NCBI GenBank assembly: GCA_021739645.1
Contig: JAIPBL010000049.1
Location: forward strand, 1 to 47,124
Origin: Saprospiraceae bacterium
Lineage (GTDB): Bacteria > Bacteroidota > Bacteroidia > Chitinophagales > Saprospiraceae
DNA length: 47,124 bases
Direction: 5' to 3'
The notes below the pieces were generated by a model that made no database searches, was not told the DNA's origin, and saw only the letters and a program-made list of their open reading frames with translations. This document shows positions 1,267-22,685 of this stretch, one piece after another; within the stretch, counting starts at the first letter, position 1; every line of letters begins with the position of its first letter. The position numbers and the translations under genes were made by a program.

Positions 1267-1824
1267 CTAAAGTACTACGTTAGCAGGTTCTTCTTCTTCC
1301 ACATCGAACAGCGGCGTCAGCTTATCGGGCATTTCTTTGTTCAGCAATTTGCTGAGTTCTTTCAAGCTAAGGTTTGCCTTGGCGGAAATAAAGAACATTT
1401 CGCCGCTCTCGGTGTCGTTGAACACCATCATGATGTTGTGGATGACATCGCCGTATTCTTGCACCATGATTTGCATGTTCATCCCCTCCGACTTTATCAT
1501 GATAAGGTCGTCGAAGCTGTTTTTCAGCAAATCTTGGCGCAGCTGGCTGACCTTTTCAGCAGGAATCGCAACGCCCTCTTCGGAGTACATGAACTTAACT
1601 TTTCCGAAGTGGCGCATCAATCCAAATGCCTCTTTTTCGGTATCTGACTCGGATTTGTTGCGGGCTATTTTGCTCCCCATCCGAATGACCCAACCAGGTA
1701 ATTTGGCGTTTTTGACCCCTTCTTGGTGCTTGTGCTGGCGGTAAAACTTGTTCAGCGGTTTGTTCTGACAAACGATGAACCCCGGCAGTAAAAAAAGCAG
1801 GAATATTAGCAGATTGTTTTTCAT
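1267..1824 (-). CDS. DUF4252 domain protein (distal copy)
   Basis: A secreted or lipid-anchored protein of 185 residues with no assigned biochemical role. The N-terminus is a hydrophobic export signal (LLIFLLFLLPGFIVC). The Cys at residue 19 could be a lipobox cysteine, though the preceding residues (IV) are not ideal. The rest fits the DUF4252 family common in Bacteroidota: an alpha/beta domain with MIMVQEYGDVIHNIMMVF-like strands and a C-terminal helix LKELSKLLNKE. It is the last gene of a four-gene minus-strand run: ECF sigma factor, anti-sigma-like membrane protein, DUF4252, DUF4252. The spacing to the upstream DUF4252 gene is 55 bases. In Bacteroidota this gene order recurs, which suggests an envelope-related output of the sigma factor; that link is inference. 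Confidence 0.8.
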   Translation of the reverse strand: MKNNLLIFLLFLLPGFIVCQNKPLNKFYRQHKHQEGVKNAKLPGWVIRMGSKIARNKSESDTEKEAFGLMRHFGKVKFMYSEEGVAIPAEKVSQLRQDLLKNSFDDLIMIKSEGMNMQIMVQEYGDVIHNIMMVFNDTESGEMFFISAKANLSLKELSKLLNKEMPDKLTPLFDVEEEEPANVVL

Positions 1825-1879
1825 GGCGTTCTGAATGTTTAATGAAAGATGCAGGCACTAAGACTTTACCCCAGTTTCA

Positions 1880-2431
1880 TTAATCTTTCTTTTGTTTGGC
1901 CCCCTTCGCCTCCTTCTTCTCGCCGTCTTCATTGAACGCCTTGGATAACTTGCCAACTTGGCTGATGTCAATGTTTCCGATAAAACTCAGTAGTACAAAG
2001 TCTTCGTCATCGCCACCAACGAGCAGTAGTAGTTCGTTGAGGGTACTGCCGCTGTTGCTATCTTTCACAAGGAATTTTACGTTTTGTTCATTGCCCTCTC
2101 GAACTTCGAGCAAGGTTTCGTAGCCCTTTGTGTTAATAGTAGCAAGGGCTTCCTTGTAAAATTTGGCACCATCCGTATCGGTTGTCAGGATGCGAAGACC
2201 TTTCAGGTCTTTGACCACCGACATGACTGCTTGGGCTTCCTCATCGTCGAGGTCAAGTTCCATTTTGTTAATCATCTGGAACATCTTTCCACTGACGTAA
2301 ACAACGGTAAAGCGCTCGTCATCCACATACTTGGAAAAATACTTCGAGATGGCGTCTTCCTGCGCTTGGGCAGTACTGGAAATTCCTGCGGTGAGGAACA
2401 ATGCGATGAAAAGGATTGACAGGTATTTCAT
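1880..2431 (-). CDS. DUF4252 domain protein (proximal copy)
   Basis: A 183-residue exported protein. A classical signal peptide is visible (MKYLSILFIALFLTAGISS, then AQAQ), without a lipobox cysteine, so it is probably periplasmic. The mature part matches DUF4252: an opening helix (AISKYFSKYVDDERFTVVYV), the strand pattern GLRILTTDTDGAKFYKEAL, and a C-terminal hydrophobic strand VLLSFIGNIDISQVGKLSKAF. The tail is lysine-rich (KKEAKGAKQKKD). It is a diverged paralogue of the next gene downstream. Function is unknown. Position in the operon behind a sigma factor and a presumed anti-sigma factor suggests it is made under the same envelope signal. Confidence 0.82.
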   Translation of the reverse strand: MKYLSILFIALFLTAGISSTAQAQEDAISKYFSKYVDDERFTVVYVSGKMFQMINKMELDLDDEEAQAVMSVVKDLKGLRILTTDTDGAKFYKEALATINTKGYETLLEVREGNEQNVKFLVKDSNSGSTLNELLLLVGGDDEDFVLLSFIGNIDISQVGKLSKAFNEDGEKKEAKGAKQKKD

Positions 2432-2547
2432 TTTTCAAAAATTAAATAGTTAAAAAATCGGGTGATTTCGATGATTTGTTGGATTGCTTAATTATTGGGT
2501 TGTTGCTTGTTTCTCGATAACATTGTAGCAACCCAACAATAAAACAA

Positions 2548-3042
2548 TCAATTAAAGTACTTCCCCACCTTTTCCAATTCCTTCATCTCTTCGCCAGCCC
2601 TTTTTGTGCCTTTGTTGAGTTTGTTGGAAAGGAGTTTGAGGGCTTTCACGGTTTCTTCGTAGGCTATTTTTTCGTCTTTGATTTCATATTTGCTCCAATC
2701 AATACTTGCTTGCTGTGCATGAGTCGAATTGTTTTTTTGTAAAAAAAACATGGCACCCACAAGCACTGCACCAACCGCTGCTATCCGAAGCAAGTGCCGA
2801 GGCCGAGTGTTCATTCGCACGACTTTCGTATCAGGCAAGTCCATTTTCTGGAACAAAGCCTCGTCAAAATCATCTGACAAACCCCTGTCCCGTTCTGTGG
2901 AAAAATGTTGGAACAACGGCTGGAATTCCCGCAGGTCTTCCGCCACGCCCTCCCCACTGTTGAAGTAATCCCGCAGCCGGGCCTCCTCTTCCAGCGAGGT
3001 TTCTCCTTCAAAATATTTTTCGATAAGCGCTTTCATGTTCAC
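2548..3042 (-). CDS. Single-pass membrane protein, probable anti-sigma factor
   Basis: 164 residues with a cytosolic N-terminal half, one membrane helix (about residues 86-102, LLRIAAVGAVLVGAMFFL) and a periplasmic tail of about 60 residues. The N-terminal part (MKALIEKYFEGETSLEEEAR, then LRDYFNSGEG) is a short acidic helical pattern frequent in small proteins next to ECF sigma genes in Bacteroidota, and it lacks a zinc-binding HXXXCXXC motif. It begins 61 bases after the sigma-factor stop, in the same direction, and precedes two DUF4252 genes. The anti-sigma role is inferred from topology and position; no binding residue proves it. The alternative start Met-3 is equally possible. Confidence 0.65.
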   Translation of the reverse strand: MNMKALIEKYFEGETSLEEEARLRDYFNSGEGVAEDLREFQPLFQHFSTERDRGLSDDFDEALFQKMDLPDTKVVRMNTRPRHLLRIAAVGAVLVGAMFFLQKNNSTHAQQASIDWSKYEIKDEKIAYEETVKALKLLSNKLNKGTKRAGEEMKELEKVGKYFN

Positions 3043-3103
3043 TAAATATTTATGTCAAGTACTTGATTATCCTTTTGTTGAAGATTCGGTGATTTGACAC
3101 ACC

Positions 3104-3601
3104 TCATACCTCATGCCTCATACCTTCCCTAACCGCCTTCCTCGCCCGGAACAAGTAAACCTTTACTTGGTCCATTGGCACATTGAGCGTTTCCGCAATT
3201 TCTTGGTAACTCAACCCCTCGATATCTCGAAGCTGCATGATGTCCCGTTGTTTTTCTGGCAGGCGCCCCATCAGGTTACGCACTTGGTCGAAAACATCGT
3301 GTGTTACGGTCTCCTCGTAGGGCGTTGCCGAGTGGTCATGCAGGTCGAACCCAGCTGCCATTGGCACCATCCGCTGGTGCTTGGAGCGCAGTTTGTCAAT
3401 CGAGAGGTTCTTCGTCGCCGTGATGCACCACGCCTCCACGTTGGAGATTTGGGCTATCTGCTGGCGGTTTTTCCAGAGCTTAATGAAGACCTCCTGCACC
3501 ACGTCCTCTGCCTCTGCCGTCTGTCCTACAATGCCAATCGCAAAGCGGAAAAGCCGATTTTTAAATGGCAGAATTAGCGTTTTAAATTCGTGGTGGTTCA
3601 T
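3104..3601 (-). CDS. RNA polymerase ECF-type sigma factor
   Basis: A 165-residue sigma-70 family member of the extracytoplasmic-function class, which directs RNA polymerase to a small regulon. Region 2 is visible at about residues 8-75 (FRFAIGIVGQTAEAEDVVQE, then VFIKLWKN and WCITATKNLSIDKLRS). Region 4 lies at about 110-160 with the helix-turn-helix LSYQEIAETLNVPMDQVKVY followed by LFRARKAVR. Regions 1 and 3 are absent, as expected for ECF factors. It is the first gene of the four-gene operon with a presumed anti-sigma factor and two DUF4252 proteins, which suggests regulation by sequestration and autoregulation. It is divergent from the AAA+ ATPase gene, with 245 bases between. Confidence 0.92.
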   Translation of the reverse strand: MNHHEFKTLILPFKNRLFRFAIGIVGQTAEAEDVVQEVFIKLWKNRQQIAQISNVEAWCITATKNLSIDKLRSKHQRMVPMAAGFDLHDHSATPYEETVTHDVFDQVRNLMGRLPEKQRDIMQLRDIEGLSYQEIAETLNVPMDQVKVYLFRARKAVREGMRHEV

Positions 3602-3846: not shown

Positions 3847-6800
3847 GTGCCGCAAAACATCACCCTGCCGTTTCAGACCATCAAGCTGCGCCTCAACACC
3901 GGCGAGGAACTTGCCTTTCCGCTCTCCGACCCCAACGCCTTTCACCTCGGCACTACGGCCACGCTTCTTTCAGAGAAATTTGCAGAACGGTTTCAAAAAA
4001 AACAGCTCGATAAAGGCAAAATCACCGGATTGCTCGATTTGCTAAAGGACGGCATTTTTGATACAAAAAAAATCACCGTCCCCTTCACCAAAGCTCCAGA
4101 CGGCATCAGCTACCCAGATTTTGTGCTGGAATTCGACTGCATTTTCCAAACTCAGGGAGCCTCGGTCTGGGGCATGATACCCGCCCTCGGCTTGGAGGCG
4201 CTCACCTCGTCGGAGGAGGAACTGGACGTGCACCTGATAGAAGTGGTGCGAATTGAATTTTCTTCGAAAAAAAGGCTGCAAAGCGTCTTCCAAATCATTG
4301 CCGCAAGCTGGTATGAGGGTACTGAGGTGGTCCAGTCCGAAATAAAATTGAAAACTTGGTCGCCAGCAGAATTGGTAGAAAATGAGCGGAACAAGCAGCT
4401 CGAACTTTTGCCGAAGGTGGCAGAAAAAATGGCCGAATCACACCCAGCGGCATTTGGAAGAGAAGAGGAACTGGCGCAAATGGAGCGTATCTTGAAGGGT
4501 CGTTTTAGTCGAAATCTATTACTGGTCGGAGCATCCGGCTCTGGCAAAACGGCACTGGTGCAAGAATTGGTACACCGAAAAAAACAGCTCGAAATCACCT
4601 CGGAAATCTGGGAAACCACTGCCTCAGTGCTCATCAAAGAACTCACGACAGAATCTGGCTGGCAGGACAACACCAGCCTTCTCATCAAGGAATTAACCCT
4701 GAAAGGCGATATCCTTTTCGTGCGAAACCTTTCCGAACTCTTCGAGGTGGGTCGCTACGAGGGCAATGCGGTGAGCATGGCCGAGTACCTCCGAAGTGCG
4801 GTGGGGAGGGGCGAGGTGACGCTGATTGGAGAGTGCACACCGGAGGAAGTATCCCGCATCGAGTTGCGCAGCCCCGGCTACTTGGCCTTCTTCCAAACAG
4901 TGCAGGTGACCGAGCCGAAAGAGGACGTAGAGGGCATTATTTTACAAAAAATAAAAAGCCTCGTCGGGCAGCGGAACGTGACTATAGAGCCAGCCGCCGT
5001 ACAGGAAATCGTGCGCCTGCACCGACGGTTCTCGCCATACAGCGGCATGCCCGGCAAGCCAATCCGCTTCCTCGAAAGCATCCTGCTGGGGCTTGTCGAA
5101 ACACCCATTTCGCCTAAAAAGAAAAAGGAAAAGCTAACCGAGACCACTTCCTCAGTCATCACCGTAGCAAATCCTAAAGCCGCAATTACCCGTGAACTGG
5201 TCTTGAAAGCGTATTGCGAAGAAACCGGCCTGCCTTTGTTTATGGTTGACCCAGCACTGCCAATGGACGTTCCAGCAATTCGTAAAACGTTCAGCAACAA
5301 CGTCTTCGGGCAAGAACGGGCAGTGGCGGCAGTCGTGGACATGCTCGCCACGGTGAAAACCGCCTTGAGCCGCACCGGCAAGCCCATCGCCTCGCTACTC
5401 TTCGCCGGGCCAACGGGCGTTGGCAAAACGGAACTGGCGAAGGTGCTTTCCATTACCATGTTCGGCAGCCGGGATCGGATGCTGCGCTTCGACATGAGCG
5501 AGTACAGCACCCCTTGGTCGGTGATGCGGCTGACTGGCGAAGGATTCTACTCAGAAGGACTACTCACGTCCGCCGTCCGCCGTGACCCATTTTGTGTGTT
5601 GCTTTTTGATGAAATCGAGAAGGCCGACCCCAAGTTCTTTGAGCTTCTGCTGCAAATGCTGAGTGAGGGCCGCCTCTCTGACAGCCGAGGTCGGGCAGTC
5701 AATTTTTGCAGTGCCATTATCATCATGACGACCAATATCGGGGCAGCCAACCTGCATCGGAACCGAATTTCATGGAAAAAAGAATTGGGGGAAAAGGACG
5801 TGACAGCACATTTTACCGCTGCCATTGAACAACATTTCCGGCCTGAATTGTACAACCGGATGGACGCTATCGTCGCCTTTGCACCGCTCGACCAGGCCGC
5901 CGTTCGCTTTGTGGTGGAGCGGGAAATTGATTTGTTCCGAAAGCGGGAGGGCATCCGGTTCCGACACATTGACCTGACCATTGACGAGGCTGTTTTTGAG
6001 TATTTGGCCGAAGTCGGCTATGATGTACGGTTCGGTGCCCGCTACCTCCAACGGACCATCCGGGAGCGGCTCGCCCTACCACTTGCCGAAGCGTTGAACG
6101 AGTACGCCTTCGACGAGCACCTTAGCGTGAAAGTGGCCCTGATGGAGGGCAAAATCAACTTGGAAGTGGATGCTGACCCGCTCGGGTTCGACCTGCTGAT
6201 GGAGCAGTGGGACAAGCTAACGCTGGCCGAAAAAACCTCCCATCAACGCCGCAAGGTGGCGCTGCTGCTCGAAAGCCCGCTTTACCTGCGCTTTGAGAGC
6301 GAAATGGATATGTTGGAGGCAGAAAAAAGTCGGAACGAGGCTGACTTTTTTAAGCACTCGGAGCAATCGAAGCGATACGCTTCGCTCGTCGGGGCGCATA
6401 CTTTTTCAAAAGAAATCTTTGATGAAATCCAAAATTTGGAGGTAGAAATTGCCTTGGCCTGCATGGGACATGGCGACTTTTTGACGGATTTTGGGAGTCG
6501 GCTGGAGGCTTGGGAAGCGTCGTTTTTCCAGTTGCAAGTCAAAATACACAGCTTGGTGTCACCGAAGCGAGACACTTGCTGGATTGGGCTTTATGGTCTC
6601 CACCTTGAAGAGGCCTTGCAGTTTTACCTCTCCCTTTTCAAAGCTAAGAATTTTGAAATCAAGGCCATGGAAACGGTCTGGTTTAGAGAAGGCTACACAG
6701 GTGAAGCGAGCGGCGGAAAGAAAAATGCCGCCAAAGCCAAGGAAAAAAATGCCGCCTATTTTTATCAATCCATCCAAAACCCTGAAGATTTCCGTTTGGC

Positions 6801-7176
6801 TTCCACACCTGCCAAGCCTGGGGATTTGTGCTGTGGTGTGGAAATTGCGGTAAATGGCCCATCGGCATGGCTTTATTTGAAGGAGGAGAAAGGTTTTCAG
6901 CTATGGTCAAATAAGGAGCTGTTGGAGCCATTTCAATTGTTTGTATTAACCGCTTTGGGAAAAATAAAGACACCTGCTGAAATTCATCGGCAAGCATTTT
7001 ATTTGAATGGCAAGGCAAGGCGACAGGTAACTCCGGTTGGGTTTTCCGATTCTAAACTGGAACTGGCCACAAATTTACCGCCAGTTGACAATGTTCCTTT
7101 GTTGGTGGAGAAACTGGATGCGGTTTATAAAAAAGTTCTAACAAGGGCTTTTTTGGACGATGGGCAAGAAGAATAA
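3847..7176 (+). CDS. Clp/Hsp100-like double AAA+ ATPase with PCRF-like C-terminal extension
   Basis: 1109 residues starting at GTG; an in-frame stop 12 bases upstream leaves no earlier start. An N-terminal domain (1-200) is not recognised and lacks Clp N-repeats. AAA module 1 has Walker A GASGSGKT (228-235), but its Walker B position reads ILFVRN (R293 N294 where ILFIDE is expected), and the usual RRF arginine finger is absent, so it probably binds but does not hydrolyse ATP. Module 2 is intact: Walker A GPTGVGKT (521-528), Walker B LLFDE (D588, E589), sensor-1 N630, arginine finger FRPELYNR (R671), sensor-2 GAR (730-732). There is no ClpB-type middle coiled coil. Residues about 800-1109 form an extension whose later part (909-1020) resembles the PCRF domain of class I release factors (GPSAWLYLKEEKG). 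Likely a protein remodeller; the target, perhaps the ribosome, is inferred. Confidence 0.82.
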   Translation: MPQNITLPFQTIKLRLNTGEELAFPLSDPNAFHLGTTATLLSEKFAERFQKKQLDKGKITGLLDLLKDGIFDTKKITVPFTKAPDGISYPDFVLEFDCIFQTQGASVWGMIPALGLEALTSSEEELDVHLIEVVRIEFSSKKRLQSVFQIIAASWYEGTEVVQSEIKLKTWSPAELVENERNKQLELLPKVAEKMAESHPAAFGREEELAQMERILKGRFSRNLLLVGASGSGKTALVQELVHRKKQLEITSEIWETTASVLIKELTTESGWQDNTSLLIKELTLKGDILFVRNLSELFEVGRYEGNAVSMAEYLRSAVGRGEVTLIGECTPEEVSRIELRSPGYLAFFQTVQVTEPKEDVEGIILQKIKSLVGQRNVTIEPAAVQEIVRLHRRFSPYSGMPGKPIRFLESILLGLVETPISPKKKKEKLTETTSSVITVANPKAAITRELVLKAYCEETGLPLFMVDPALPMDVPAIRKTFSNNVFGQERAVAAVVDMLATVKTALSRTGKPIASLLFAGPTGVGKTELAKVLSITMFGSRDRMLRFDMSEYSTPWSVMRLTGEGFYSEGLLTSAVRRDPFCVLLFDEIEKADPKFFELLLQMLSEGRLSDSRGRAVNFCSAIIIMTTNIGAANLHRNRISWKKELGEKDVTAHFTAAIEQHFRPELYNRMDAIVAFAPLDQAAVRFVVEREIDLFRKREGIRFRHIDLTIDEAVFEYLAEVGYDVRFGARYLQRTIRERLALPLAEALNEYAFDEHLSVKVALMEGKINLEVDADPLGFDLLMEQWDKLTLAEKTSHQRRKVALLLESPLYLRFESEMDMLEAEKSRNEADFFKHSEQSKRYASLVGAHTFSKEIFDEIQNLEVEIALACMGHGDFLTDFGSRLEAWEASFFQLQVKIHSLVSPKRDTCWIGLYGLHLEEALQFYLSLFKAKNFEIKAMETVWFREGYTGEASGGKKNAAKAKEKNAAYFYQSIQNPEDFRLASTPAKPGDLCCGVEIAVNGPSAWLYLKEEKGFQLWSNKELLEPFQLFVLTALGKIKTPAEIHRQAFYLNGKARRQVTPVGFSDSKLELATNLPPVDNVPLLVEKLDAVYKKVLTRAFLDDGQEE

Positions 7177-9047: not shown

Positions 9048-11009
9048 TTATTTTTTCTCCCCTTTTTTCCGACGAGACTTTTCCTTAGTTTTTGATGGGC
9101 TTTTCTCCTTGTTTTCTTTGAAAATCGGCGCTGGCACGACTTGGGTTTCTTCACCAAACATGAGCATGAAATTTTTATTGGAATTCGGCGTCCTGCGGAG
9201 TTTGTCTGGATTGCCCACGTTGAAGGCAAAGGAGGCCGGGAACAGCAACTGGTTCCGTTGTTGGTCTAAGACGACTATTTTTTCAAAAAAAACACTGGTT
9301 TCGTTCTGCACGTTTTTGAGCGCATCGTGTACCGCCAAATCGCCGGTTCGGTAAGTGAAAAAACTCTTGGAATCTTGGTTTTTGCCAGCAACAATGACCT
9401 GAAAAGAGACAATATCCAGCGTATCGTCACCGACCAACAAGCGGGGTTCCTGCTCGATGGAAAGCAGAAAACTGTCCAAAGGATAATTTAAGTTGGATGG
9501 AGAAGCCACCATGTCACCCCAGACCATACGTACATCCTTGCCCTGATAGGTTTGGTATTCCGGCAAATAGAAAGCGTCTTTTTCCATAAAAGTCAGCGTT
9601 GAATTGGCTGCGGCCACTTTTGAGGCCAGCGACTCCGCCTCCGTGATGTAGTGCCGATTGGTGTGGAACCCGGGTATCCGCACGATTTCATACTGCCGGA
9701 TATCCCCGTAGAGTTGTACGATGCGGTCGGTGTTCGGGTCGTCGGGGTCTATTTTCACCAACGCCCGCTGGCCTTTCCGAGCCACGATTTGGTAGGGCAT
9801 CGACGCTTCCAAGTGGTTGATTTGTGGCACAAAAAACGATGGTTCGTAACCCGCATCGGGGTCTTTGATTTGGATTTCGACCCTCGAAAGGTAGATGTCT
9901 TCGGTGTCTCCGAACAACGTCAACTGATCGCCAAGGTCGAGACTGTCATTGAATACCAACCCATTTTTACGGTCGAGCAGCACGATTTTAGTTGGGTCAA
10001 TGCCGTTGATGTACGCTTGCATTCCAGTCCGGCTGCTTTTGTAAAAAATGCTGAGCGTACCTGGTTTCAATGGCTTGCCATCTTTGAAAACGGTGAATGG
10101 TTTGTTCACAATCTCCTGAAAATCAGCCAGTTCCAGTTCCATCCCAACAGCGTATCCATTCGGATTTGCAAATTTGGTGAGGGGCATCTTCAGCCCGCCC
10201 CAGTCCACGAAATACTCGTGTTCCTTTTTGATTTTGTTTTCACAAATGGTTGTTCCAAAAAAATTGGCTGCCATCGCTCCCATCCGATGGATTGACGAGA
10301 AGCTAGTTGGCACAAAGACAAAAAACAAGCTCAATCCCATTGCCAGTGCTGAAAACCCAAGGTTTTTTACCGTAAGAAACCCCGCCCGCTCCGGTGTTGA
10401 AGTTTGCCAACCAGCGTAAAGCTCCCCCCAGCTTTCCCGGTAGCGATAAGCCAGTGGATTGTACCAATTGAGCACCAGCAGCAGTTCGACCAGCAGCGCT
10501 TCCCAAGCGTACATCGGATGGAGGGGCAGCCAATGTTGGACCCAAGCCTCTTTTTCTTCCTCAGGCATCAAGTTCCAGTTGAGTACCAAACTGCTCATGG
10601 CTGCCGTGGGCATGGCCTGCCAGGGTATCAAACTTGTATGCTGATTGCCATTTTGTTCCAAAAATTGATGGACTGTCCAAAGCCGGTCCGTGAGTCGAAA
10701 GGAGGAAATTAGCACCCCAACAAAATAGACGACCAAAAACACCGAACCTATCGTCACGGTGAATTCTGGGAACTGAAAGTCAAGTAGTTTGGCAAAAATC
10801 ATGGCCACTTTTCCGGGGGAATGTTCCCCGATTGGCCGCTCGAAAACGGCGGGCAGGAGTGGTAGCAAACCAGCCAATACTGGAACGAGTCGGAGTTGCC
10901 ACCTTTTTGCCCGAAATGAATTTACGGGGGCATTCGTCAGGTGATAATACCCGAGCAGAAGCCAAAAGGCAAGCAACGATTCGAGTACAAACTGCGGAAA
11001 GGATGGCAT
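9048..11009 (-). CDS. BlaR1/M56-like membrane protein lacking the zinc-protease motif
   Basis: 653 residues from the ATG at 11009; the frame stays open to 11081 but those codons lack protein-like character. The first 240 residues have the membrane layout of the M56/BlaR1 sensor protease family: helices near 7-25, 40-56, 84-105 and 217-234, plus the landmark ALLVELLLVLNWYNPLAYRY. Where active M56 members have HEXXH just before this landmark, this protein has QHWLP, so the zinc site appears lost. The remaining 400 residues are extracytoplasmic, with no family I recognise (beta-rich, Asp/Gly-rich, e.g. DPDDPNTDRIVQLYGD), ending in a Lys-rich tail (KEKSRRKKGEKK). It may be a signalling or scaffold protein derived from a protease. 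No BlaI/MecI repressor gene is adjacent. Confidence 0.62.
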   Translation of the reverse strand: MPSFPQFVLESLLAFWLLLGYYHLTNAPVNSFRAKRWQLRLVPVLAGLLPLLPAVFERPIGEHSPGKVAMIFAKLLDFQFPEFTVTIGSVFLVVYFVGVLISSFRLTDRLWTVHQFLEQNGNQHTSLIPWQAMPTAAMSSLVLNWNLMPEEEKEAWVQHWLPLHPMYAWEALLVELLLVLNWYNPLAYRYRESWGELYAGWQTSTPERAGFLTVKNLGFSALAMGLSLFFVFVPTSFSSIHRMGAMAANFFGTTICENKIKKEHEYFVDWGGLKMPLTKFANPNGYAVGMELELADFQEIVNKPFTVFKDGKPLKPGTLSIFYKSSRTGMQAYINGIDPTKIVLLDRKNGLVFNDSLDLGDQLTLFGDTEDIYLSRVEIQIKDPDAGYEPSFFVPQINHLEASMPYQIVARKGQRALVKIDPDDPNTDRIVQLYGDIRQYEIVRIPGFHTNRHYITEAESLASKVAAANSTLTFMEKDAFYLPEYQTYQGKDVRMVWGDMVASPSNLNYPLDSFLLSIEQEPRLLVGDDTLDIVSFQVIVAGKNQDSKSFFTYRTGDLAVHDALKNVQNETSVFFEKIVVLDQQRNQLLFPASFAFNVGNPDKLRRTPNSNKNFMLMFGEETQVVPAPIFKENKEKSPSKTKEKSRRKKGEKK

Positions 11010-11101
11010 AGAAGGCGATTTTCTGGCTGAAAAATAAAGACTTAACGTCTTACTTTCAACCTGATACACCGATGTTAACATTTGGTTTTACTAATTCTGC
11101 C

Positions 11102-13155: not shown

Positions 13156-14718
13156 TCATTTTTTCAACACAACAAATTTCTCCACAGCCATCACTTCACT
13201 GCCTTCCATGTACTGCAAGAAGTACATTCCAGCCGCCCAGTCCGAGACAGGCAGTGTAAATGAACTTTGCGTAACGGGCCTTACAATTATTTTCTGTAGC
13301 CTGCCATCAAGATTGATGATGCGTAACGTTGCTTCGGGTGATGAAGCTTGCCCAAGTAATTTGATATTCAAAAAGTCGCTGGTAGGGTTGGGGCCAACCG
13401 TGAGTTTCTGCGTGATGGTGGCTTCCTCCTTTGCATCTACTTCCAGCCCTGAAAGATAGCGGGCTACGATAAATTCTGTTCCCCAACCATTTGCACCATA
13501 ATCTTTTCCCGCATATCCGGTGACGATGATTTTGCCGTCTTCCTGCATGGCGACATCATTAAGCCGATCAGACTTTGGGCTCTGGTCAGTTATCACTAGA
13601 CCTCCGTCACCAAAGCTGTCATCCAACACGCCTTCCGTAATAAACCTTGCTAATAAAAGATCATCCACATTCTGGCCTGATGTGCCGACATAGCCTGCGA
13701 CCAATAGTTTTCCATCCGACTGGAGTGTTGAGGATGTTCCAACTAGCAATTTGCCAGTCAGTTCAACATGGGCTACACCGTCCATACCATAATCCATATC
13801 CAATTGGCCATTGCTTTTAAACTTTGCGACTGCGAGCTTGCCGCCACTTTGACCTATGGCTATTATATCGCCATTTAGCAACAATTCCAATGATTTAATA
13901 TTAGCAATACTGCTGGCTATGTCGGCTAATGCAACCCCATTCGTGCCAAATCCATTGTCCAATGTTCCATTGGAATTGGCCCGTGCCAAAGCAAAAGCAC
14001 CCATGGTGAAACCTGCTACCACAATTTTCCCATCTGGCAGCAAAATTACATTTGCACTGACTCCAAAACCTGGAAAGAATTTTCCGTTTGTAGCAAAAGC
14101 GGTATCAATATGTCCATTGGAAAGATACCCAACCACTGTGTTATTATCACCAACGAGAATTTTCCCATCCGGTTGAATGGCCACCGAACGGCCACTGCCA
14201 CCATAATTACTTCCTAAACTAAACCCATGTCCATGCTCACCGAAAGTAGGGTCGTAATCTCCATCGGCGTTTTGACGAAGGAGAATATAACGCTGTGCAG
14301 GCTCGTTAGTATTGACATATCCGACGGACACCATTTTCCCATCTGGTTGCAGCGCAATGTCATAAAAAAAAGCATCTTCAATCGGGATTTCTCCTGCATA
14401 AGAAGCACCGCCAAAAATAAGCACCCCTCCTTCGTGTGAAAACCAAAAAAGGGCTGGGCTGAGCGTATCAGTCGAACCATCGGTATTAAAACGGGCGACA
14501 AGGCCGTTATCACCACCTGAAATGCCCGCCGTCAGAATTTTGCCATCTGGTGTTTCCAAAATTGCTTGCCCTGAGTATGTTTTTGAAGATGGGTATTCAA
14601 AGGAACGGTGTACTATCCCGTTCTCGCCAAACCCAATATCAAGCGCCCCCGGTTGGGCAGTTCCAATATTGGCAAACAGATTGATTGAAAATAGCAAATA
14701 GAAGATTTTCGCTTTCAT
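13156..14718 (-). CDS. Secreted delta-60 repeat protein with T9SS C-terminal domain
   Basis: 520 residues from the ATG at 14718, which gives a signal peptide (MKAKIFYLLFSINLFANIGT then AQPG). The frame remains open upstream into the previous gene, but that segment is not protein-like. The body carries repeated units of about 60 residues with the pattern LQPDGKILVGG / FNTDGSLD..FG.NG, the delta-60 repeat expected to form a beta-propeller or similar disc. The C-terminus (about 440-520) is a type A T9SS sorting domain (VGPNPTSDFLNIKL, then GMYFLQYMEG and EKFVVLKK). It is therefore exported across the outer membrane and probably attached to the surface. It begins 14 bases after the next upstream gene, so the two are co-transcribed. 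Binding target unknown. Confidence 0.88.
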   Translation of the reverse strand: MKAKIFYLLFSINLFANIGTAQPGALDIGFGENGIVHRSFEYPSSKTYSGQAILETPDGKILTAGISGGDNGLVARFNTDGSTDTLSPALFWFSHEGGVLIFGGASYAGEIPIEDAFFYDIALQPDGKMVSVGYVNTNEPAQRYILLRQNADGDYDPTFGEHGHGFSLGSNYGGSGRSVAIQPDGKILVGDNNTVVGYLSNGHIDTAFATNGKFFPGFGVSANVILLPDGKIVVAGFTMGAFALARANSNGTLDNGFGTNGVALADIASSIANIKSLELLLNGDIIAIGQSGGKLAVAKFKSNGQLDMDYGMDGVAHVELTGKLLVGTSSTLQSDGKLLVAGYVGTSGQNVDDLLLARFITEGVLDDSFGDGGLVITDQSPKSDRLNDVAMQEDGKIIVTGYAGKDYGANGWGTEFIVARYLSGLEVDAKEEATITQKLTVGPNPTSDFLNIKLLGQASSPEATLRIINLDGRLQKIIVRPVTQSSFTLPVSDWAAGMYFLQYMEGSEVMAVEKFVVLKK

Positions 14719-14732
14719 AAGATTGTGTTTTA

Positions 14733-16265
14733 TCAGTGTGAAACAACGAATTTGGTGGTTGTTAGGAGCGTGTTTTCTTCCATATACTGCAAATAATACA
14801 CCCCCGCCTCCCAATCCCTAACAGGCAACGTAAATGTAGCATCGGGATGCGGTGTTTTCATAGCCTCCATCACTTTTCCCTCGGCATTGACGATGCGGAA
14901 CTCTGCTTTTGAGGTCATTGCTAATCCCCGTAGCTGAAAGTTCAGGTAGTCGGAGGTGGGATTGGGATAAATGGCGATGCTTGCCCCGGCCCGCCCCTCG
15001 GTCGTGGCGTTGGGGCCGTCGTTGGCGTTGCAGCCGGGGATGAGGCAGCCGAAGGAGTCGAGCTTCATCAGCCAGCCGAAAGTCTCTAACCCTTCTTCTG
15101 TATGGCCTGATACAATGTAACCACCGTCGGGGGTTGCTTTGAAATCAGCAGGTGTTGGACTTCTCAAGTTATCGTCAAAGACGGAGTAGTACCTCGCCCA
15201 AAGGCTGTCGCCTTGGTTGGATAGCTTAACTATCCAACTACCATAAACCTCACTGCCAGTGGAGATGTTTTCACCCACTCTACCGTATGTAACAAAGCCT
15301 GTCCCATCAGTTGCAGGAACTATTTTGGCGAAGGAAGGACTACCAGCATGACGAGTGCCTCTAAGTTCTCTGCCCCAAACAAATTGGTGACTAGCATTTA
15401 ATTTAAAAATATATCCTTGCCACCTCAATTGCCCTTGCTCTGCATTCACTGGATGTTCGATGCCCTTCCCACTAGCCACCACAAGTCCACCGTCGGAGGT
15501 CTTCACCATAGACTTGGCGAAGTCCCATAACTGTCCAGTTGGTGATTGGTACTCCCAAAGCACATTACCTAAACTATCCACACCGAAGATATATGCACGG
15601 TTAAAAAAGTTTTTCAACACATAATTATAGTTTGTCTTACAAGAACCAATTATTAAACCTCCATCTGACTCTACTAAGGTTGACCCAATTAGCTCTGTTG
15701 TATTATTGCCGTAGGTTTTCTCTTGCAAAACATTGCCAGATTCATCAAGTTTTAACACCACAATATCTGGCTGAACTATGGATTCAGAAAGAAGGAAAAT
15801 ACCTGTCAAATAATACCCATTTTCAAATTGTACTAGGTTATTTGCAGTTATAAAAGTCTCCATTGGAAAATTGGGGTTGATATATTCTTTTACAAACTGT
15901 GTGTCACCCTCTGGCGTGTATTTCATAAAGAAAATCTTATCCGGTGTCTCGCCCGCTGTTGCCAAGTTGCCATCTGGAGTGTTAAATAGTCCAGTGTTCC
16001 ATGTCAGGTAATGCTTGGAAGGAACTATCAAATTTTTAGTAAGAAGGGTGTCGCCAGTCAAACTAATTTTCAAGAAAAGACTGCCGATTTCAGCCTGCTG
16101 GTTAGTAGTGTCCGTTATTACACCGGTTATGTAGTAACAACTATCAGTTGGGAGGATATTGGTCAACTCCAAGTACTTGTAGCCAAAATTGGACTGTATG
16201 TTAAAAGTGATCTGGCTGGTCACTAGATTGGAGTACAAAAGAGTAAGTATAATGAGCTTTTTCAT
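14733..16265 (-). CDS. Secreted beta-propeller-like protein with T9SS C-terminal domain
   Basis: 510 residues from the ATG at 16265, which provides a signal peptide (MKKLIILTLLYSNLVTSQ). The body holds degenerate repeats of about 55-70 residues with motifs such as TPDGNLATAGETP, ESDGGLIIGSCKT, TSDGGLVVASGKG and TPDGGYIVSGHTE, each preceded by a statement-like strand; this resembles a beta-propeller. The C-terminal roughly 75 residues (IYPNPTSDYLNFQLRG to TTKFVVSH) are a type A T9SS sorting domain that is clearly a paralogue of that in the gene 14 bases downstream (FTLPVRDWEAGVYYLQYMEE against FTLPVSDWAAGMYFLQYMEG). Both are likely surface proteins expressed together. A terminator at 16275-16306 separates it from the metalloprotease gene. 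Confidence 0.85.
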   Translation of the reverse strand: MKKLIILTLLYSNLVTSQITFNIQSNFGYKYLELTNILPTDSCYYITGVITDTTNQQAEIGSLFLKISLTGDTLLTKNLIVPSKHYLTWNTGLFNTPDGNLATAGETPDKIFFMKYTPEGDTQFVKEYINPNFPMETFITANNLVQFENGYYLTGIFLLSESIVQPDIVVLKLDESGNVLQEKTYGNNTTELIGSTLVESDGGLIIGSCKTNYNYVLKNFFNRAYIFGVDSLGNVLWEYQSPTGQLWDFAKSMVKTSDGGLVVASGKGIEHPVNAEQGQLRWQGYIFKLNASHQFVWGRELRGTRHAGSPSFAKIVPATDGTGFVTYGRVGENISTGSEVYGSWIVKLSNQGDSLWARYYSVFDDNLRSPTPADFKATPDGGYIVSGHTEEGLETFGWLMKLDSFGCLIPGCNANDGPNATTEGRAGASIAIYPNPTSDYLNFQLRGLAMTSKAEFRIVNAEGKVMEAMKTPHPDATFTLPVRDWEAGVYYLQYMEENTLLTTTKFVVSH

Positions 16266-16274
16266 GTCAGAAAT

Positions 16275-16306
16275 AAAAAAAAGGAAAGTGCAGACATGCA
16301 CTTTCC
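16275..16306 (-). terminator. Terminator after the metalloprotease gene
   Basis: On the minus strand a perfect 10-bp stem (GGAAAGTGCA, loop, TGCACTTTCC; 16283-16306) is followed by eight T. It lies 12 bases after the stop of the gene at 16318-19392 and just before the next start codon at 16265. Confidence 0.9.
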
Positions 16307-16317
16307 CTAGGTAATTG

Positions 16318-19300
16318 TTATTTAATAAGCACCAATTTCTTAGGTACATCCGCACCTCCTATCTGGGTAGTTTTGTAATAATAGACCCCTGAAGCCAAGC
16401 CGTCGGTTTTCCATTCGACCGAATTGATAGCAGCTTGAAGTGGAAAACGTGCCACCATTCGACCATTTACATCGTAAATATCCAAGCTGGCTTTAGCAAA
16501 TTCTTCATTCAATTTGTAGCTGAAATTAACCAAACCCTTTGCCGGGTTAGGGTACGCCTCAATTTGAGCCCCTACCACCACTGCTTGCCCATTGGAAGGC
16601 GGAGTTGAAATAAACAACCCACCACCACCTGTAGTCGGCGACTTTGGCAAAATCCGGTAATCGGCGCCGTATAGCGCATTCAACAAGCCTTGTGTCTGCG
16701 CAGCAGCAAGACCACCGCCATTGTCGGCTATGGATTGCACCAATGCTATATCCGTACTATCAAGCGCATACATATCTTTTTCTTGGTTGGCCAATGAAAT
16801 CCACAAGTCCACCCAATCCTCATAGTCTTGATGCTGGGTCAGGGCGTGGCCAGTAATCTGGTGTCGGATGGGAATAGAGTCCAGCACTTGTTCGGCCATG
16901 CTAAAGTTCGCTTCCGATAGCCAAGTCTCCACGATGGCGTATTCCGATTCCTTACTGGCCTTGTTTCGAAGCCATGTGCGAATCTTGGGTAGGTCAAGGC
17001 TTACAGTGTCCAATAGCTCGCTTCGGATGATGACGTTGGCTATGCGATGCATAATGCTTTTCTTCGCTGCCAGTTCAGGCTCTAATGCCAAGGCCGCTGC
17101 ACTTCCGTTGGGCAAAGAATTATATTGTGCCAATTGGCTTTGATAAGCAGATTGGGTAGTGTTAAAGTCTGTAACAAGTGACCCTTCTTCATTCCCTGTC
17201 AAGACTCCTTCTTTATCGTCCTTGCCTGTATCAGTACATATAACTGGTATTGTTTTTACGATTGGTGTGATATTGAGGTAATTTAGGGGTATTTCATTGG
17301 TGGCATTCCGGTAATAATAATTGATTAGCCCCGAGCTTTCATTCTTGTAATCACCAGAAGAGCTGTTGATATAGGAAAAAACATTTTTGCTTGCTAAGCC
17401 TGTCCCTTGCTCTTTACCAATACCTTCATCAAAAATCGCAAAATCGTATTGTGTGCTAGAATTGGTATTGCACCAATACTGTAACCCATCAACAGGGAAT
17501 GAGCCCCTATTATCTAACTCCGCCTGATTCCCCACATTCAACCCACTAAACGTATTCCTCCGCAAGATATTCACGTCCGAGCCAGTGTCGTAAGCTAAGA
17601 TGCCGATGTCATTGGTAGCCGAGGAGCCAGTGAGGTTGTTGTCGTTGACGATAAAGCTGGTGCAGTTGCGCAGTTCGATGCCTGTGGGCTTTTCGCCTGA
17701 AACAGGGGTCGTCAGCGAGTAGTTGCCGATGCCCGTGAAGGTATTGGTTTTGAGGGTGGCGTTGTCCATGTTCCAGTTCTCGATGCCCTTGAAGTTGTCA
17801 GTGAAGTGAGCACCGTTCACGGAGTAGCCAAGGCTGGAACTGCCAATCTTGTAAGCACGGATAGCATTATAGTAGCCAGTGAAGGTGCCGCCGCTCACGG
17901 CAAAACGAGCATTGAGCGCCGATATGCCCCTTGGGGTGGTAGTGCCGACCTGCCCGCTCAGAAGTCCTGAAATGGAGAAAGTACAGTTGGTGAAACCGAC
18001 GTTTAGCACTTTCGTGAGCTGCACGTTGTTGATAAAAGGGAAAAAAGCCATGTCATCGTTGAGGAACTGGCAGTCGGTGAAGCGGCTGAGGTTGTTCTTT
18101 GCGTAGTTGTGGAAGATGACGGCACCGCAATTGCTGAACAAAGTGGCATCGGCTGTGACGAGGCCGCCGCCCCGAACCCGAAGCGGGGTTCTTGCATCTT
18201 CGATAGTAGAGTTGGGGTATAATCTTGCCCTGCCTTGGTTGGATGTGGGTATCTGGCCGAGGCTGGTGTTGCCTTCTACTTCAATGCCTTCCCATTCGTC
18301 ACCACAACCAGTGAGGGCCACACCTTTTACGTTGACCCGGCCCCCAGGCTTCACGAGTATTTTTCTGCCTACATTGAACTGTAAATTGGAGGCGAGGTTG
18401 AGTGTGGCATCTGGTTCGACGATGAAGCCGGGGAGGCAGGGATTGATGTTTGGAAATGGAAATGGAATATTACCGTTAATATCTATTGTGATATCCAATC
18501 CATTTGAAAACCGGATGGGGCCAACATTATTCACTACCTCTTGAAGCTTCGGGCAAGTAGTGAGATAGCGCTTCATTCTCCTTCGTTGGCCATCTGTAAA
18601 GTCCTCTCTGCAAGGAATAGGGTAATATGACATTATGTTGGTTAGTGGTATTCCAACTGTTACTGCATCTTCAATATCTGTTGTGCAATCTTCATCAAAA
18701 TAACCACCATTTCCTACTGGGTCAAAACTACTGTCACTTACGAAATCTCCACAATTGCAAGGAGTCGGAAATTGTAGGCAAGGGCTCCCAGGGTCATCTT
18801 CATTTGCACTGCAAAGGTTAAATGTGTGAAACAACCCAAATACATGACCTAATTCATGCATCAAAATTTCAGGATAGTTTATAAAAGGTTCTCCAAACCT
18901 GTCCACACCTCCACCAATAACAACTGCGGGTTTCCATTCTTCTTGGCTAGGTGCAGATGCAACTCCATTATCATAAATGCCTGGGCCGCAAAAGTAAATA
19001 TCAATTGCTCCAGGATGATTCTTTTCATTTATTAAATTACCGAATTGACCAGGTATGTAATCGTATCCAGCATAATCAAAAATGGTATTGTTGTTTACAA
19101 AGTCAAAACCTTCAATGGATAGAAAAATTCCCATCGGGATAAATTTGTTAATAGTTTCCGAAAGCATGGTATTTATATTGACGATGTCTTGTGCGCCTGA
19201 TAAGTCAGTCCTTCTGATTAGGTTAACCCATACCCGGACTACAATTAAATTATTGTTTTGTGGGTCACAATTATCGCCATCAATTGTGCCATGCATACCC

Positions 19301-19392
19301 ATCGTACATGATGGGAAATTCGTGTTTACCTCACAGCTTGGGTCAGGCCCTGGCACTAGTGGAGCAGGCGAACAAACCTGCGCATCAGCCAT
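16318..19392 (-). CDS. Secreted pappalysin-like (M43) metalloprotease with beta-helix and T9SS domain
   Basis: 1024 residues as read, starting MADAQVC. The catalytic domain (about 1-290) carries the metzincin site HELGHVFGLFH (H179, E180, H183, G186, H189), the Met-turn NIMSYY, and the M43-type cysteine pattern with CREDFTDGQRRRM. Residues about 300-720 are repetitive and Asn/Gly-rich (NCTFSISG, NNLTGSSATNDIGIL), like a right-handed parallel beta-helix. The C-terminus is a type A T9SS domain (EAYPNPAKGLVNFSYKL to PKKLVLIK). A signal peptide is missing from this start but is encoded upstream: in the same frame the bases before the ATG read as a hydrophobic IIRIAAFFAFLIFQ. An ATG for it exists at 19489, but in a frame that differs across a G9 tract (19449-19457). 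See findings. Confidence 0.87.
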   Translation of the reverse strand: MADAQVCSPAPLVPGPDPSCEVNTNFPSCTMGMHGTIDGDNCDPQNNNLIVVRVWVNLIRRTDLSGAQDIVNINTMLSETINKFIPMGIFLSIEGFDFVNNNTIFDYAGYDYIPGQFGNLINEKNHPGAIDIYFCGPGIYDNGVASAPSQEEWKPAVVIGGGVDRFGEPFINYPEILMHELGHVFGLFHTFNLCSANEDDPGSPCLQFPTPCNCGDFVSDSSFDPVGNGGYFDEDCTTDIEDAVTVGIPLTNIMSYYPIPCREDFTDGQRRRMKRYLTTCPKLQEVVNNVGPIRFSNGLDITIDINGNIPFPFPNINPCLPGFIVEPDATLNLASNLQFNVGRKILVKPGGRVNVKGVALTGCGDEWEGIEVEGNTSLGQIPTSNQGRARLYPNSTIEDARTPLRVRGGGLVTADATLFSNCGAVIFHNYAKNNLSRFTDCQFLNDDMAFFPFINNVQLTKVLNVGFTNCTFSISGLLSGQVGTTTPRGISALNARFAVSGGTFTGYYNAIRAYKIGSSSLGYSVNGAHFTDNFKGIENWNMDNATLKTNTFTGIGNYSLTTPVSGEKPTGIELRNCTSFIVNDNNLTGSSATNDIGILAYDTGSDVNILRRNTFSGLNVGNQAELDNRGSFPVDGLQYWCNTNSSTQYDFAIFDEGIGKEQGTGLASKNVFSYINSSSGDYKNESSGLINYYYRNATNEIPLNYLNITPIVKTIPVICTDTGKDDKEGVLTGNEEGSLVTDFNTTQSAYQSQLAQYNSLPNGSAAALALEPELAAKKSIMHRIANVIIRSELLDTVSLDLPKIRTWLRNKASKESEYAIVETWLSEANFSMAEQVLDSIPIRHQITGHALTQHQDYEDWVDLWISLANQEKDMYALDSTDIALVQSIADNGGGLAAAQTQGLLNALYGADYRILPKSPTTGGGGLFISTPPSNGQAVVVGAQIEAYPNPAKGLVNFSYKLNEEFAKASLDIYDVNGRMVARFPLQAAINSVEWKTDGLASGVYYYKTTQIGGADVPKKLVLIK

Positions 19393-19448
19393 TGCTTGAA
19401 AGATTAGAAACGCAAAAAAAGCAGCAATACGAATGATAGATTGAAAGC

Positions 19449-19457
19449 GGGGGGGGG
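19449..19457. repeat. G9 homopolymer in the signal-peptide region of the metalloprotease gene
   Basis: Nine consecutive G on the plus strand (C on the coding strand). Removing one base joins the ATG at 19487-19489 (MKSGIFNSILSPPR...) in frame to the hydrophobic stretch and to the metalloprotease, giving a complete export signal. With nine bases the frame is broken. It is either a sequencing or assembly slip or a phase-variable tract. Confidence 0.7.
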
Positions 19458-19489
19458 CTTAATATTGAATTGAAAATTCCTGATTTCAT

Positions 19490-19760
19490 GGTAAAAGGTT
19501 TGCGGCCCTGCACCCCAAAATATTTTGAAGCAGCAAAACCCGGTTATTAGGAATAAATATTAGCCTTTTTTTGGTACGCTTTTCAAGACAGGATAAAAGG
19601 GTTGCCGAAGCGATTTAGCCAAAGCTAATGGAACTTGGTTGTTCTGTCAAATATTTTTTCGTCATATAATCTATGGCCGACCAAAAGATACCCTTTGCAG
19701 GAGGGTTCCATTCCTCTTAAAATACACTTGGTCATTCTTAGCTATTTACCCTCGAAATCT
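19490..19760. other. Gene-free spacer between two secreted-protein genes
   Basis: AT-rich, with no open frame of convincing character; short open frames on the plus strand resemble nothing. It should contain the promoter of the metalloprotease gene on the minus strand. A near-match to the Bacteroidota -7 box (ATATTTTG on the minus strand) is present but imperfect. Confidence 0.4.
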
Positions 19761-19795
19761 AAAAAAGGGTACGCAGCTAGCTGTGTACCCTTTTT
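19761..19795. terminator. Bidirectional hairpin terminator
   Basis: Long, nearly perfect hairpin (GGGTACGCAGCTAGCTG with GTACCC pairing, 19767-19790) flanked by six A on one side and five T on the other. It sits 25 bases past the stop of the gliding-type secreted protein gene (minus strand). Confidence 0.85.
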
Positions 19796-19819
19796 GGAAT
19801 AAAGTGTCGCTCCACCCCC

Positions 19820-22210: not shown

Positions 22211-22685
22211 GGCGGCTGAAGTCATAATCATTGTTTGTTGATAGTCTTTCGGTAAACCTTTAAATTTTAGGTGTCATAAACAAGTGGAGGATATTCGAAT
22301 GGAGACCTATACAGTGGAGCCAGACCAGCGGCGAATTTAGGTTCGAGGGCATAAAGGTAGAATGAAATGACCATTTATCCAATTTGGGGAACAGGAAAAG
22401 TCTGTTTACGGCCCTCAAAAACCTTTTCGATATTCTACCAATTGCCGAAATACGTAGTCAACACAATTTATTTGACACTTTTTGTAAACACATAGCCACA
22501 GTAGCAGACATAGTTTTTGTCCGCCTACGGCGGACTTCCTTCTATGATTTCTTTGTGGCTATGTGTTTAATAATCAATGTGTTAGTTTGATTTTTTGTGT
22601 CGAATAATTGAGCAGAGATACTTACATTTAATTCAATGAAAATTGTCGCTTTAAATTTTATTTGGCGAAAGCAACTTCCTACTCA
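22211..22685. other. Gene-free spacer holding a nested palindrome
   Basis: Apart from the cruciform element at 22486-22568, no feature is supported. A 68-codon plus-strand open frame (22384-22590) runs through that palindrome and is not a credible gene. The minus-strand promoter of the gliding-type protein must lie at the left side but has no clear TAnnTTTG match. Confidence 0.45.
22486..22568. repeat. Nested inverted-repeat (cruciform) element
   Basis: Outer arms of 15 bases are perfect: AAACACATAGCCACA at 22486-22500 and its complement at 22554-22568. Within lie a 5-base pair of arms (CATAG 22509-22513, CTATG 22542-22546) and a central perfect hairpin GTCCGCC-TAC-GGCGGAC at 22519-22535. 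It encodes nothing and has no transposase nearby. The structure is that of a dispersed palindromic unit. Confidence 0.8.

Follow-up and report, generated by a model that had tools for sequence, protein, structure and literature searches.

The A gene of a Saprospiraceae bacterium encodes a two-module Hsp100 protein whose C-terminal tail is, on good evidence, derived from the body of a class-I release factor: it has domains 1, 2 and 4, and the peptidyl-hydrolysis domain has been removed. The gene lies on contig JAIPBL010000049.1, of which positions 1 to 47,124 were analysed and are called the window. In the related genomes searched, A is nearly always present or absent together with two Hsp100 paralogues, B and C, and the architecture of the three proteins is well supported. 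From this architecture a function can be proposed: A would be one subunit of an A-B-C Hsp100 machine, a mixed ring that docks in the ribosomal A site and clears away a protein stuck there. Ring mixing and the action on the ribosome are what we infer, and the chances of the proposal as a whole fall just short of even.

The tail was studied as an alignment of 42 sequences (residues 755–1109 of the A protein), i.e., that of the window and 41 of the 47 A rows (L037, L045, L054, L056, L060 and L077 were left out). Its profile was compared by hhalign with 30 RF1 and RF2 rows from Bacteroidota, each frame being trimmed to its first methionine, which left seven of them under 300 residues; the expectation values (E) are those of single comparisons rather than of database searches. 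The A tail matched the release factors with 94.7% probability (E 5.9e-8), and the match spans release-factor columns 4–206, which are domains 1 and 2, in order. Of the controls, the best of 100 block shuffles reached 28.8%, the best of 100 column shuffles 1.3%, and the reversed profile 0.3%.

In release factors, domain 3, which carries the GGQ motif, lies between domain 2 and domain 4; in the A protein this intervening domain is absent, and the domain 4-like part follows the domain 2-like part. With domain 3 excised from the release factors, the global match of the A tail was 98.0% (E 1.3e-12) and the local match 96.2% (best of 60 block shuffles, 55.1%). The uncut global match was 94.3% with reduced columns, and 20.7% with five release factors only. 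A sliding-excision control, in which the release-factor columns were reduced to those of one row, gave the A tail a global match of 97.3% at the true position of domain 3, 97.6% at the best position nearby and 94.3% uncut, a small gain. For the B tail, the local score was 36.7 uncut and 49.8–55.0 for cuts starting at 180–206; it peaked at 62.4 for a cut of 212–303, the GGQ domain, and was 37.1 six residues further on. Because of these excision and sliding-cut scores, the best fit appears to be a release factor that has domain 4 but no domain 3, which agrees with the claim of an earlier note on this DNA that the GGQ peptidyl-hydrolysis domain is missing. The letters GGQ do occur in 3 of the 42 A tails (L066, L068 and L069), at three different places and in none of the three within a release-factor setting resembling GAGGQ-VN; they occur in none of the 29 B tails.

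Nine positions of the tail are invariant or nearly invariant, and four of these fall on residues conserved in release factors. In tail numbering, Y173, E260, G262 and D314 stand opposite release-factor tyrosine (30/30), glutamate (30/30), glycine (30/30) and aspartate (29/30). In the A protein, Y927, E1014 and G1016 thereby lie on the invariant residues, and D1068 on the aspartate of the release-factor VTD. The other five (positions 47, 111, 163, 243 and 305) stand opposite no invariant release-factor residue.

The predicted fold points the same way. An AlphaFold model of the A tail (mean predicted local distance difference test score, pLDDT, 89.1) was compared with 350,542 PDB chains by Foldseek, and the best 50 of the 411 matches with E ≤ 10 were inspected. 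Ranks 1–44 are all class-I release factors (RF1, RF2, mitochondrial RF1, RF1-like proteins and PrfH), 27 matches reach E ≤ 0.001, and a protein other than a release factor does not appear until E 0.39. Some match titles name the ribosome alone; the release-factor chain of each entry was confirmed by an RF1 sequence search. When the tail profile was searched against 177,635 PDB sequences with hmmsearch, RF2 came first (E 5.7e-4 and 9e-4), followed by RF1 at E 0.19 and a coiled coil at 0.67. In the genome scans described below, the same profile matched a canonical RF2 that has SPF and GGQ (E 4.1e-6 for its one genome).

The earlier note had read the extension by eye as PCRF-like and had proposed a comparison of its AlphaFold model with release factors; with release factors in the top 44 places, and with profile comparison and genome scan in agreement, that reading stands. 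Its boundaries shift: the extension starts at about residue 755–778 rather than at about 800, and the PCRF segment, put at 909–1020, spans about 910–1036 in the model. One of the note's anchors, VEIAVNGPSAWLYLKEEKG, keeps the same register in hhalign; the other, EEALQFYLSLF, was some seven residues off, since it aligns with GDLFRMYIKYF, and DEA-LF faces a gap. The PCRF body was thus recognised, but the structural reading was incomplete: it missed that the helices match domain 1, that the C-terminus matches domain 4, and that A belongs to a set of three paralogues.

Before the tail lie two Hsp100-class AAA+ modules, as the note had also claimed; Pfam and PDB matches bear this out, and the match to ClpA is continuous over residues 202–764. 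Module 2 matches the Pfam families AAA_2 (E 2e-43) and ClpB_D2-small (E 7.2e-12). The A protein stays far below the NCBIfam cut-offs for ClpB (301.1 against 1232.1 bits), ClpA (294.6 against 993.2) and ClpV, and does not have the Clp N-domain among the best 25 of its 51 Pfam families. Foldseek found no PDB match at E ≤ 0.001 for the model of its N-terminal domain.

Residues at the catalytic motifs were counted in 56 A-family proteins, two of which are fragments without module 1, leaving 54 rows for that module. The Walker A motif of module 1 (GASGSGKT) is at residues 228–235, where the note had placed it, and its GK is present in 54/54 rows. At Walker B, LFIDEL in the ClpB of 1qvr corresponds to LFVRNL in the A protein, and none of the 54 rows has an acid at either position; the pair is RN in 38, GN in 6, QN in 3, and seven other pairs occur once each. 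The R293-N294 that the note had seen in place of the Walker B acids is thus a family trait; no homologue with a normal Walker B was found among the 54, and a sequencing error is rejected as its explanation. Loss of the arginine finger, likewise proposed from one sequence, holds in all 54 rows, none of which has arginine at either finger position; the figures are 0/30 for B and 1/30 for C, and ERRF stands there in four of five ordinary Hsp100 control rows. To judge from these residues, a dead module 1 is a trait of the A family. The note had called module 2 complete, and its Walker A, Walker B (DE) and arginine finger are indeed present in 56/56 A and 30/30 B proteins; in C, each of the three is found in 29/30, the remaining row differing or being gapped.

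The canonical catalytic residues of module 1 are lost in all three paralogues, most fully in A. The canonical D-E of Walker B is found in 0/29 B and 0/30 C proteins. In B, the first position is D in 26/29, the second is D in five and E in none, and Walker A reads GR instead of GK in 4/29. In C, the second position is D in 17/30 and E in 1/30. The pore loops, whose changes in A had escaped the note, also differ among the three: the aromatic-x-G-x-aromatic loop of module 1 is present in 0/54 A, 6/29 B and 29/30 C proteins. In module 2, the pore loop of A is about five residues short, and an aromatic residue occurs in the short loop in 38/56 A, 21/30 B and 2/30 C proteins.

B (about 1100 residues) also has a tail, whereas C (about 750–800 residues) is a shorter Hsp100 protein without one. 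The B tail matches the A tail with 97.3% probability (E 5.4e-11; 29 of the 30 B proteins were used). In 23/29 B tails there is a D-[LI]-R-[TS]-G motif, which recalls domain 4 of RF2, the matched canonical RF2 having IRSYVLHPYQMIKDHRTG at this place. A release-factor origin is less sure for the B tail than for that of A.

Outside Bacteroidota there are 14 A loci, one of which (L067) is too short to judge. In 10 of the remaining 13 (L066, L068, L070, L073, L076, L077, L078, L087, L194 and L197), the A gene is followed by two further Hsp100 genes in the order A-B-C, mostly overlapping by a few bases on a mechanical reading. L066 is from Hahella sp. HN01; L070 and L077 belong to one genome and are identical, the genes in the row of L194 are separated by about 140 and 750 bases, and the A protein of L078, just below the BLAST family cut, was assigned by tree and tail profile. 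Of the other three loci, L086 keeps the order A-B-C but includes a gap, and its B is broken; L196 has A and B, and L195 has A alone in 17 kb. The hosts of A-B-C are Hahella, two other gammaproteobacterial metagenome-assembled genomes (MAGs), Acanthopleuribacter, Holophagae, Sericytochromatia and Verrucomicrobia. The broken B of L086 (7613–10960, in an Acidobacteria MAG) is split into frames of 844 and 262 residues, maybe by an assembly error. Two further Hsp100-like genes in proteobacterial MAGs (L074:1613–4981 and L075:7269–10757) match the A tail profile at E 1e-11 and 9e-18; the cut assigns them to none of the three families and they are outside the 13, and counting them in gives 10/15. In a quick tree, A, B and C each divide into a gammaproteobacteria–Bacteroidota side and an Acidobacteriota–Verrucomicrobiota–Sericytochromatia side. 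This division needs two changes each for B and C and four for A, the latter on account of L078 and of identical rows that carry the label "other".

In the genome of the window, A is on contig C45, and B and C are on C11, about 17 kb apart. Co-occurrence was counted in 60 related genomes (G000–G059) at E ≤ 1e-100 (at 1e-30, other Hsp100 genes match in 59/60). A was found in 21, B in 22 and C in 20; 20 genomes have all three and 38 have none. As the genomes are related, these are not independent events. The exceptions are G011 (85% complete), without C, and G013 (78% complete), with B only; the A of G021 is cut before the tail and that of G005 lies on two contigs. Presence of the trio is patchy even within the genus. 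The 20 genomes with the trio measure 3.8–11.2 Mb and the 38 without any of it 1.9–6.1 Mb.

In named records, near-full-length homologues come mostly from Saprospiraceae MAGs, together with the isolate Phaeodactylibacter luteus, whose A gene is that of L051. At E ≤ 1e-4, the tail profile matched 1 of 198 evenly drawn Bacteroidota genomes (the window's own), so that within Bacteroidota, as sampled, the tail looks limited to Saprospiraceae and their near kin. A six-frame scan matched 5/149 genomes in the phylum of Acanthopleuribacter (the centre genome and one plain RF2 included), and matches were found in 3/143 genomes in the class of Hahella, two of them already known. The tail is present in nine of the ten genomes that have loci of interest and is missing in the tenth, the Thermoguttaceae genome of L095. 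At the places listed, RF2 excepted, the tail sits in frames of Hsp100 size, and these scans found no stand-alone tail. Other long Hsp100-like genes stand apart from A, B and C. In Myxococcota (L079, L089 and L090), they occur in tandem on long branches of their own (1109 and 863 residues in L079, 1647 and 1142 in L090), perhaps as a second multi-Hsp100 system. In Acidobacteriota and Aminicenantes (L081, L082, L084 and L092), proteins of about 1,000 residues with a long N-terminal region form a separate, well-supported clade.

Class-I release factors occupy the ribosomal A site, where domain 1 lies at the factor-binding centre and the decoding centre holds domains 2 and 4. That A is a remodeller acting on ribosomes, as the note had proposed, is a reasonable inference. 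In the proposed machine, A, B and C would form one mixed ring, as Pex1 and Pex6 do, and the division of parts, by which C keeps the aromatic pore loop of module 1 and A and B carry tails, would fit such a ring. Module 1 would serve as a nucleotide-binding scaffold and module 2 would hydrolyse ATP. The release-factor bodies would dock at the A site and the factor-binding centre: with GGQ missing, a tail body could fill the A site without releasing the peptide or cleaving peptidyl-tRNA, and with P-x-T or SPF missing, it would not recognise stop codons in the manner known for release factors. An Hsp100 ring placed ahead of domain 1 would be found at the factor entrance, from where it could pull off or unfold a lodged protein, be it a stuck factor, a dormancy factor or an inhibitor. 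The extracted protein would possibly be passed on to ClpP, since most B and C proteins have hydrophobic-G-F loops, which make degradation possible. This detailed version, in which gutted release factors act as docking arms that enter the A site whatever the codon and module 2 extracts or unfolds the occupant, is possible, though we regard it as doubtful.

A number of observations weigh against this proposal or against its parts. The stop-codon motif (P-x-T or SPF) is found in 0/41 A tails (one of the 42 is without the segment), so that the tail body need not bind the decoding centre at all; the same pattern is found in 21/21 release-factor segments from the 30 rows and in 1/24 B tails with the segment (of 29), a narrower pattern having caught just 10 of the 21. 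For the B tail, the match to full-length release factors is weak (35–42% local), and that to release factors without domain 3 is 82.9% local and 91.5% global, with the best of 60 block shuffles at 67.3%. Whole-chain TM-scores in Foldseek are low (0.18–0.41 by query length, rmsd, the root-mean-square deviation, 9.5–26.5 over the 44 rows), which would be expected if the placement of the domains differs and domain 3 is missing. Almost every genome has release factors, yet the canonical RF2 mentioned above is the sole plain release factor matched at E ≤ 1e-4 in the 490 genomes scanned; direct sequence signal is therefore weak, and profile and fold comparisons carry the case. The Pfam family PCRF is not among the best 25 of 34 families for the 42 tails. 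The GYVG pore motif of module 2 occurs in 0/56 A, 0/30 B and 0/30 C proteins (the pattern was found in three of five ordinary Hsp100 rows and failed on two), and this makes ordinary threading uncertain. Module 1 of C seems altered rather than plainly dead; with an acid at the second Walker B position in 18/30, it may not be dead. No linked translation gene was found in the neighbourhoods examined, save the tRNA-modifying TrmN beside the window gene and in a few near relatives.

One alternative is that the tail, a helical plus alpha/beta extension, came to resemble release factors through convergence or by chance. The low sequence identity of the fold matches at E ≤ 0.001, roughly 9–13%, and the Pfam result for PCRF would suit this explanation. 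The window tail alone has no Pfam match at E ≤ 1. Against it, hhalign, Foldseek, the PDB hmmsearch and the genome scan agree, shuffling and reversal fail to reproduce the match, and four conserved positions lie on residues that are invariant or nearly so in release factors; chance and convergence were rejected on these grounds and are very hard to credit. A second alternative is that the bodies were repurposed off the ribosome and serve a mixed Hsp100 chaperone that takes no part in translation, either for hetero-oligomerisation or as a substrate adaptor. Loss of the stop-codon motifs and the GGQ domain, the lack of a common translation neighbour, and the presence of tails on both A and B, which a pairing module would require, all speak for it; retention of the structural core positions Y, E, G and D, and a match to domains 1, 2 and 4 in order across several phyla, exceed what pairing would need. 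Net charge does not discriminate: the tails of A and of B are on average mildly acidic, and so are release-factor domains. We consider such repurposing somewhat unlikely.

The remaining alternative is a degradation machine of the ClpAP or ClpCP kind, in which a mixed ring sits on ClpP and the tails do no more than select substrates. At the position of the loop that docks ClpA and ClpC to ClpP, a loose pattern, hydrophobic-G-[FYWL], is present in 28/30 B proteins, 25 of 29 parsed C proteins (of 30) and 31/56 A proteins and hence missing from 25 of the last; by eye, as a control, it is seen in 13 Bacillota rows and absent from two ClpB-like rows of Bacteroidota. ClpP itself is found in 58/60 related genomes, with or without the trio, and none was seen in two trio genomes (G018 and G035), which also counts against delivery to ClpP in the ribosome-clearing proposal. 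Within the family of the window, a second ClpP match occurs in 6/20 trio genomes and in 0/15 without any of the three, the trio genomes also being larger; over the whole set, the figures are 6/20 and 8/38. These counts give no clear sign of a ClpP dedicated to the trio, and that idea was rejected; the degradation machine itself is improbable.

The ribosome-clearing machine proposed here can be compared with known systems. The A protein resembles ClpA, ClpC and ClpB in having two AAA+ modules in the same order and the catalytic residues of module 2, and differs from them in its gutted module 1, its lack of GYVG, its release-factor-like tail and its co-occurring paralogues. Its tail resembles RF1 and RF2 (and PrfH) in having domains 1, 2 and 4 by profile and predicted fold, and differs in having neither the GGQ domain nor P-x-T/SPF and in being fused behind an AAA+ motor. 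In Pex1 and Pex6, module 1 is inactive, and neither is known to have a release-factor part. As two-module AAA+ paralogues they offer an analogy, not kinship, for A-B-C, whose co-assembly would be similar; unlike A-B-C, they are eukaryotic peroxisomal proteins. The parts consulted of three papers describe Pex1 and Pex6 as a mixed hexamer (PMC10518020, PMC5762779, PMC9265785). An unfoldase carrying its own release-factor body, or such a three-gene set, is not described in the literature searched, which included few subscription papers and no bioRxiv. In the parts consulted of a release-factor survey (PMC6514570), neither the word "Clp" nor a GGQ-less body fused to an AAA+ motor appears.

Table 1. 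Parts of the A protein and other features of the window
Feature	Residues	Window position	Strand	Description
A gene	1–1109	3847–7176	+	GTG start, 1109 residues; two-module Hsp100 with release-factor-like tail
N-terminal domain	1–200	3847–4446	+	Strands and four helices of at least 10 residues (AlphaFold, mean pLDDT 81.2)
AAA+ module 1	~197–430	4435–5136	+	Walker A present, Walker B R293-N294, no arginine finger, canonical tyrosine missing from the pore loop
AAA+ module 2 and small domain	~480–762	5284–6132	+	Walker A, Walker B DE and arginine finger present
Long helices resembling release-factor domain 1	~778–904	6178–6558	+	hhalign, PDB-sequence profile match to RF2 domain 1, model
PCRF/domain 2-like part	~910–1036	6574–6954	+	hhalign, AlphaFold model, Foldseek
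C-terminal part resembling release-factor domain 4	~1050–1103	6994–7155	+	Better match once domain 3 is excised
Extracytoplasmic function (ECF) sigma factor (GFO_1088 type), candidate anti-sigma factor (weak match), two DUF4252 genes		1267–3601	-	Divergent from the A gene
677-residue protein		9048–11081	-	No Pfam match at E ≤ 1, no NCBIfam match at E ≤ 0.1
Run of four proteins whose sorting domains (Por_Secre_tail or CHU_C) are those of type IX secretion, one also having a peptidase M43 domain		13156–22231	-	

The neighbours of the A gene in the window are an aldolase, the DUF4252 pair, the ECF sigma factor and TrmN, found together only in near relatives; the sigma factor–DUF4252 block recurs in near relatives only. 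Scanning of 19 trio-neighbour proteins revealed no common theme, and a function deduced from neighbours was rejected. So was a defence system, the PADLOC matches being confined to the region of module 2 or its lead-in, and so were the MoxR-vWA ternary conflict systems, whose components, in the parts of PMC7159879 consulted, are different. The 677-residue protein adjoins an ABC transporter ATPase and permease, in a block conserved in L033 and L058.

If the tails bind ribosomes, A, B and C would be a bacterial motor dedicated to ribosome clearance, with its address built in. If the detailed version with docking arms is true, bacteria would have in this machine a self-targeted counterpart of the Cdc48-based motor of ribosome quality control in eukaryotes. 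The three-gene set would also be an example of a way in which a homomeric Hsp100 ring might turn into a mixed one.

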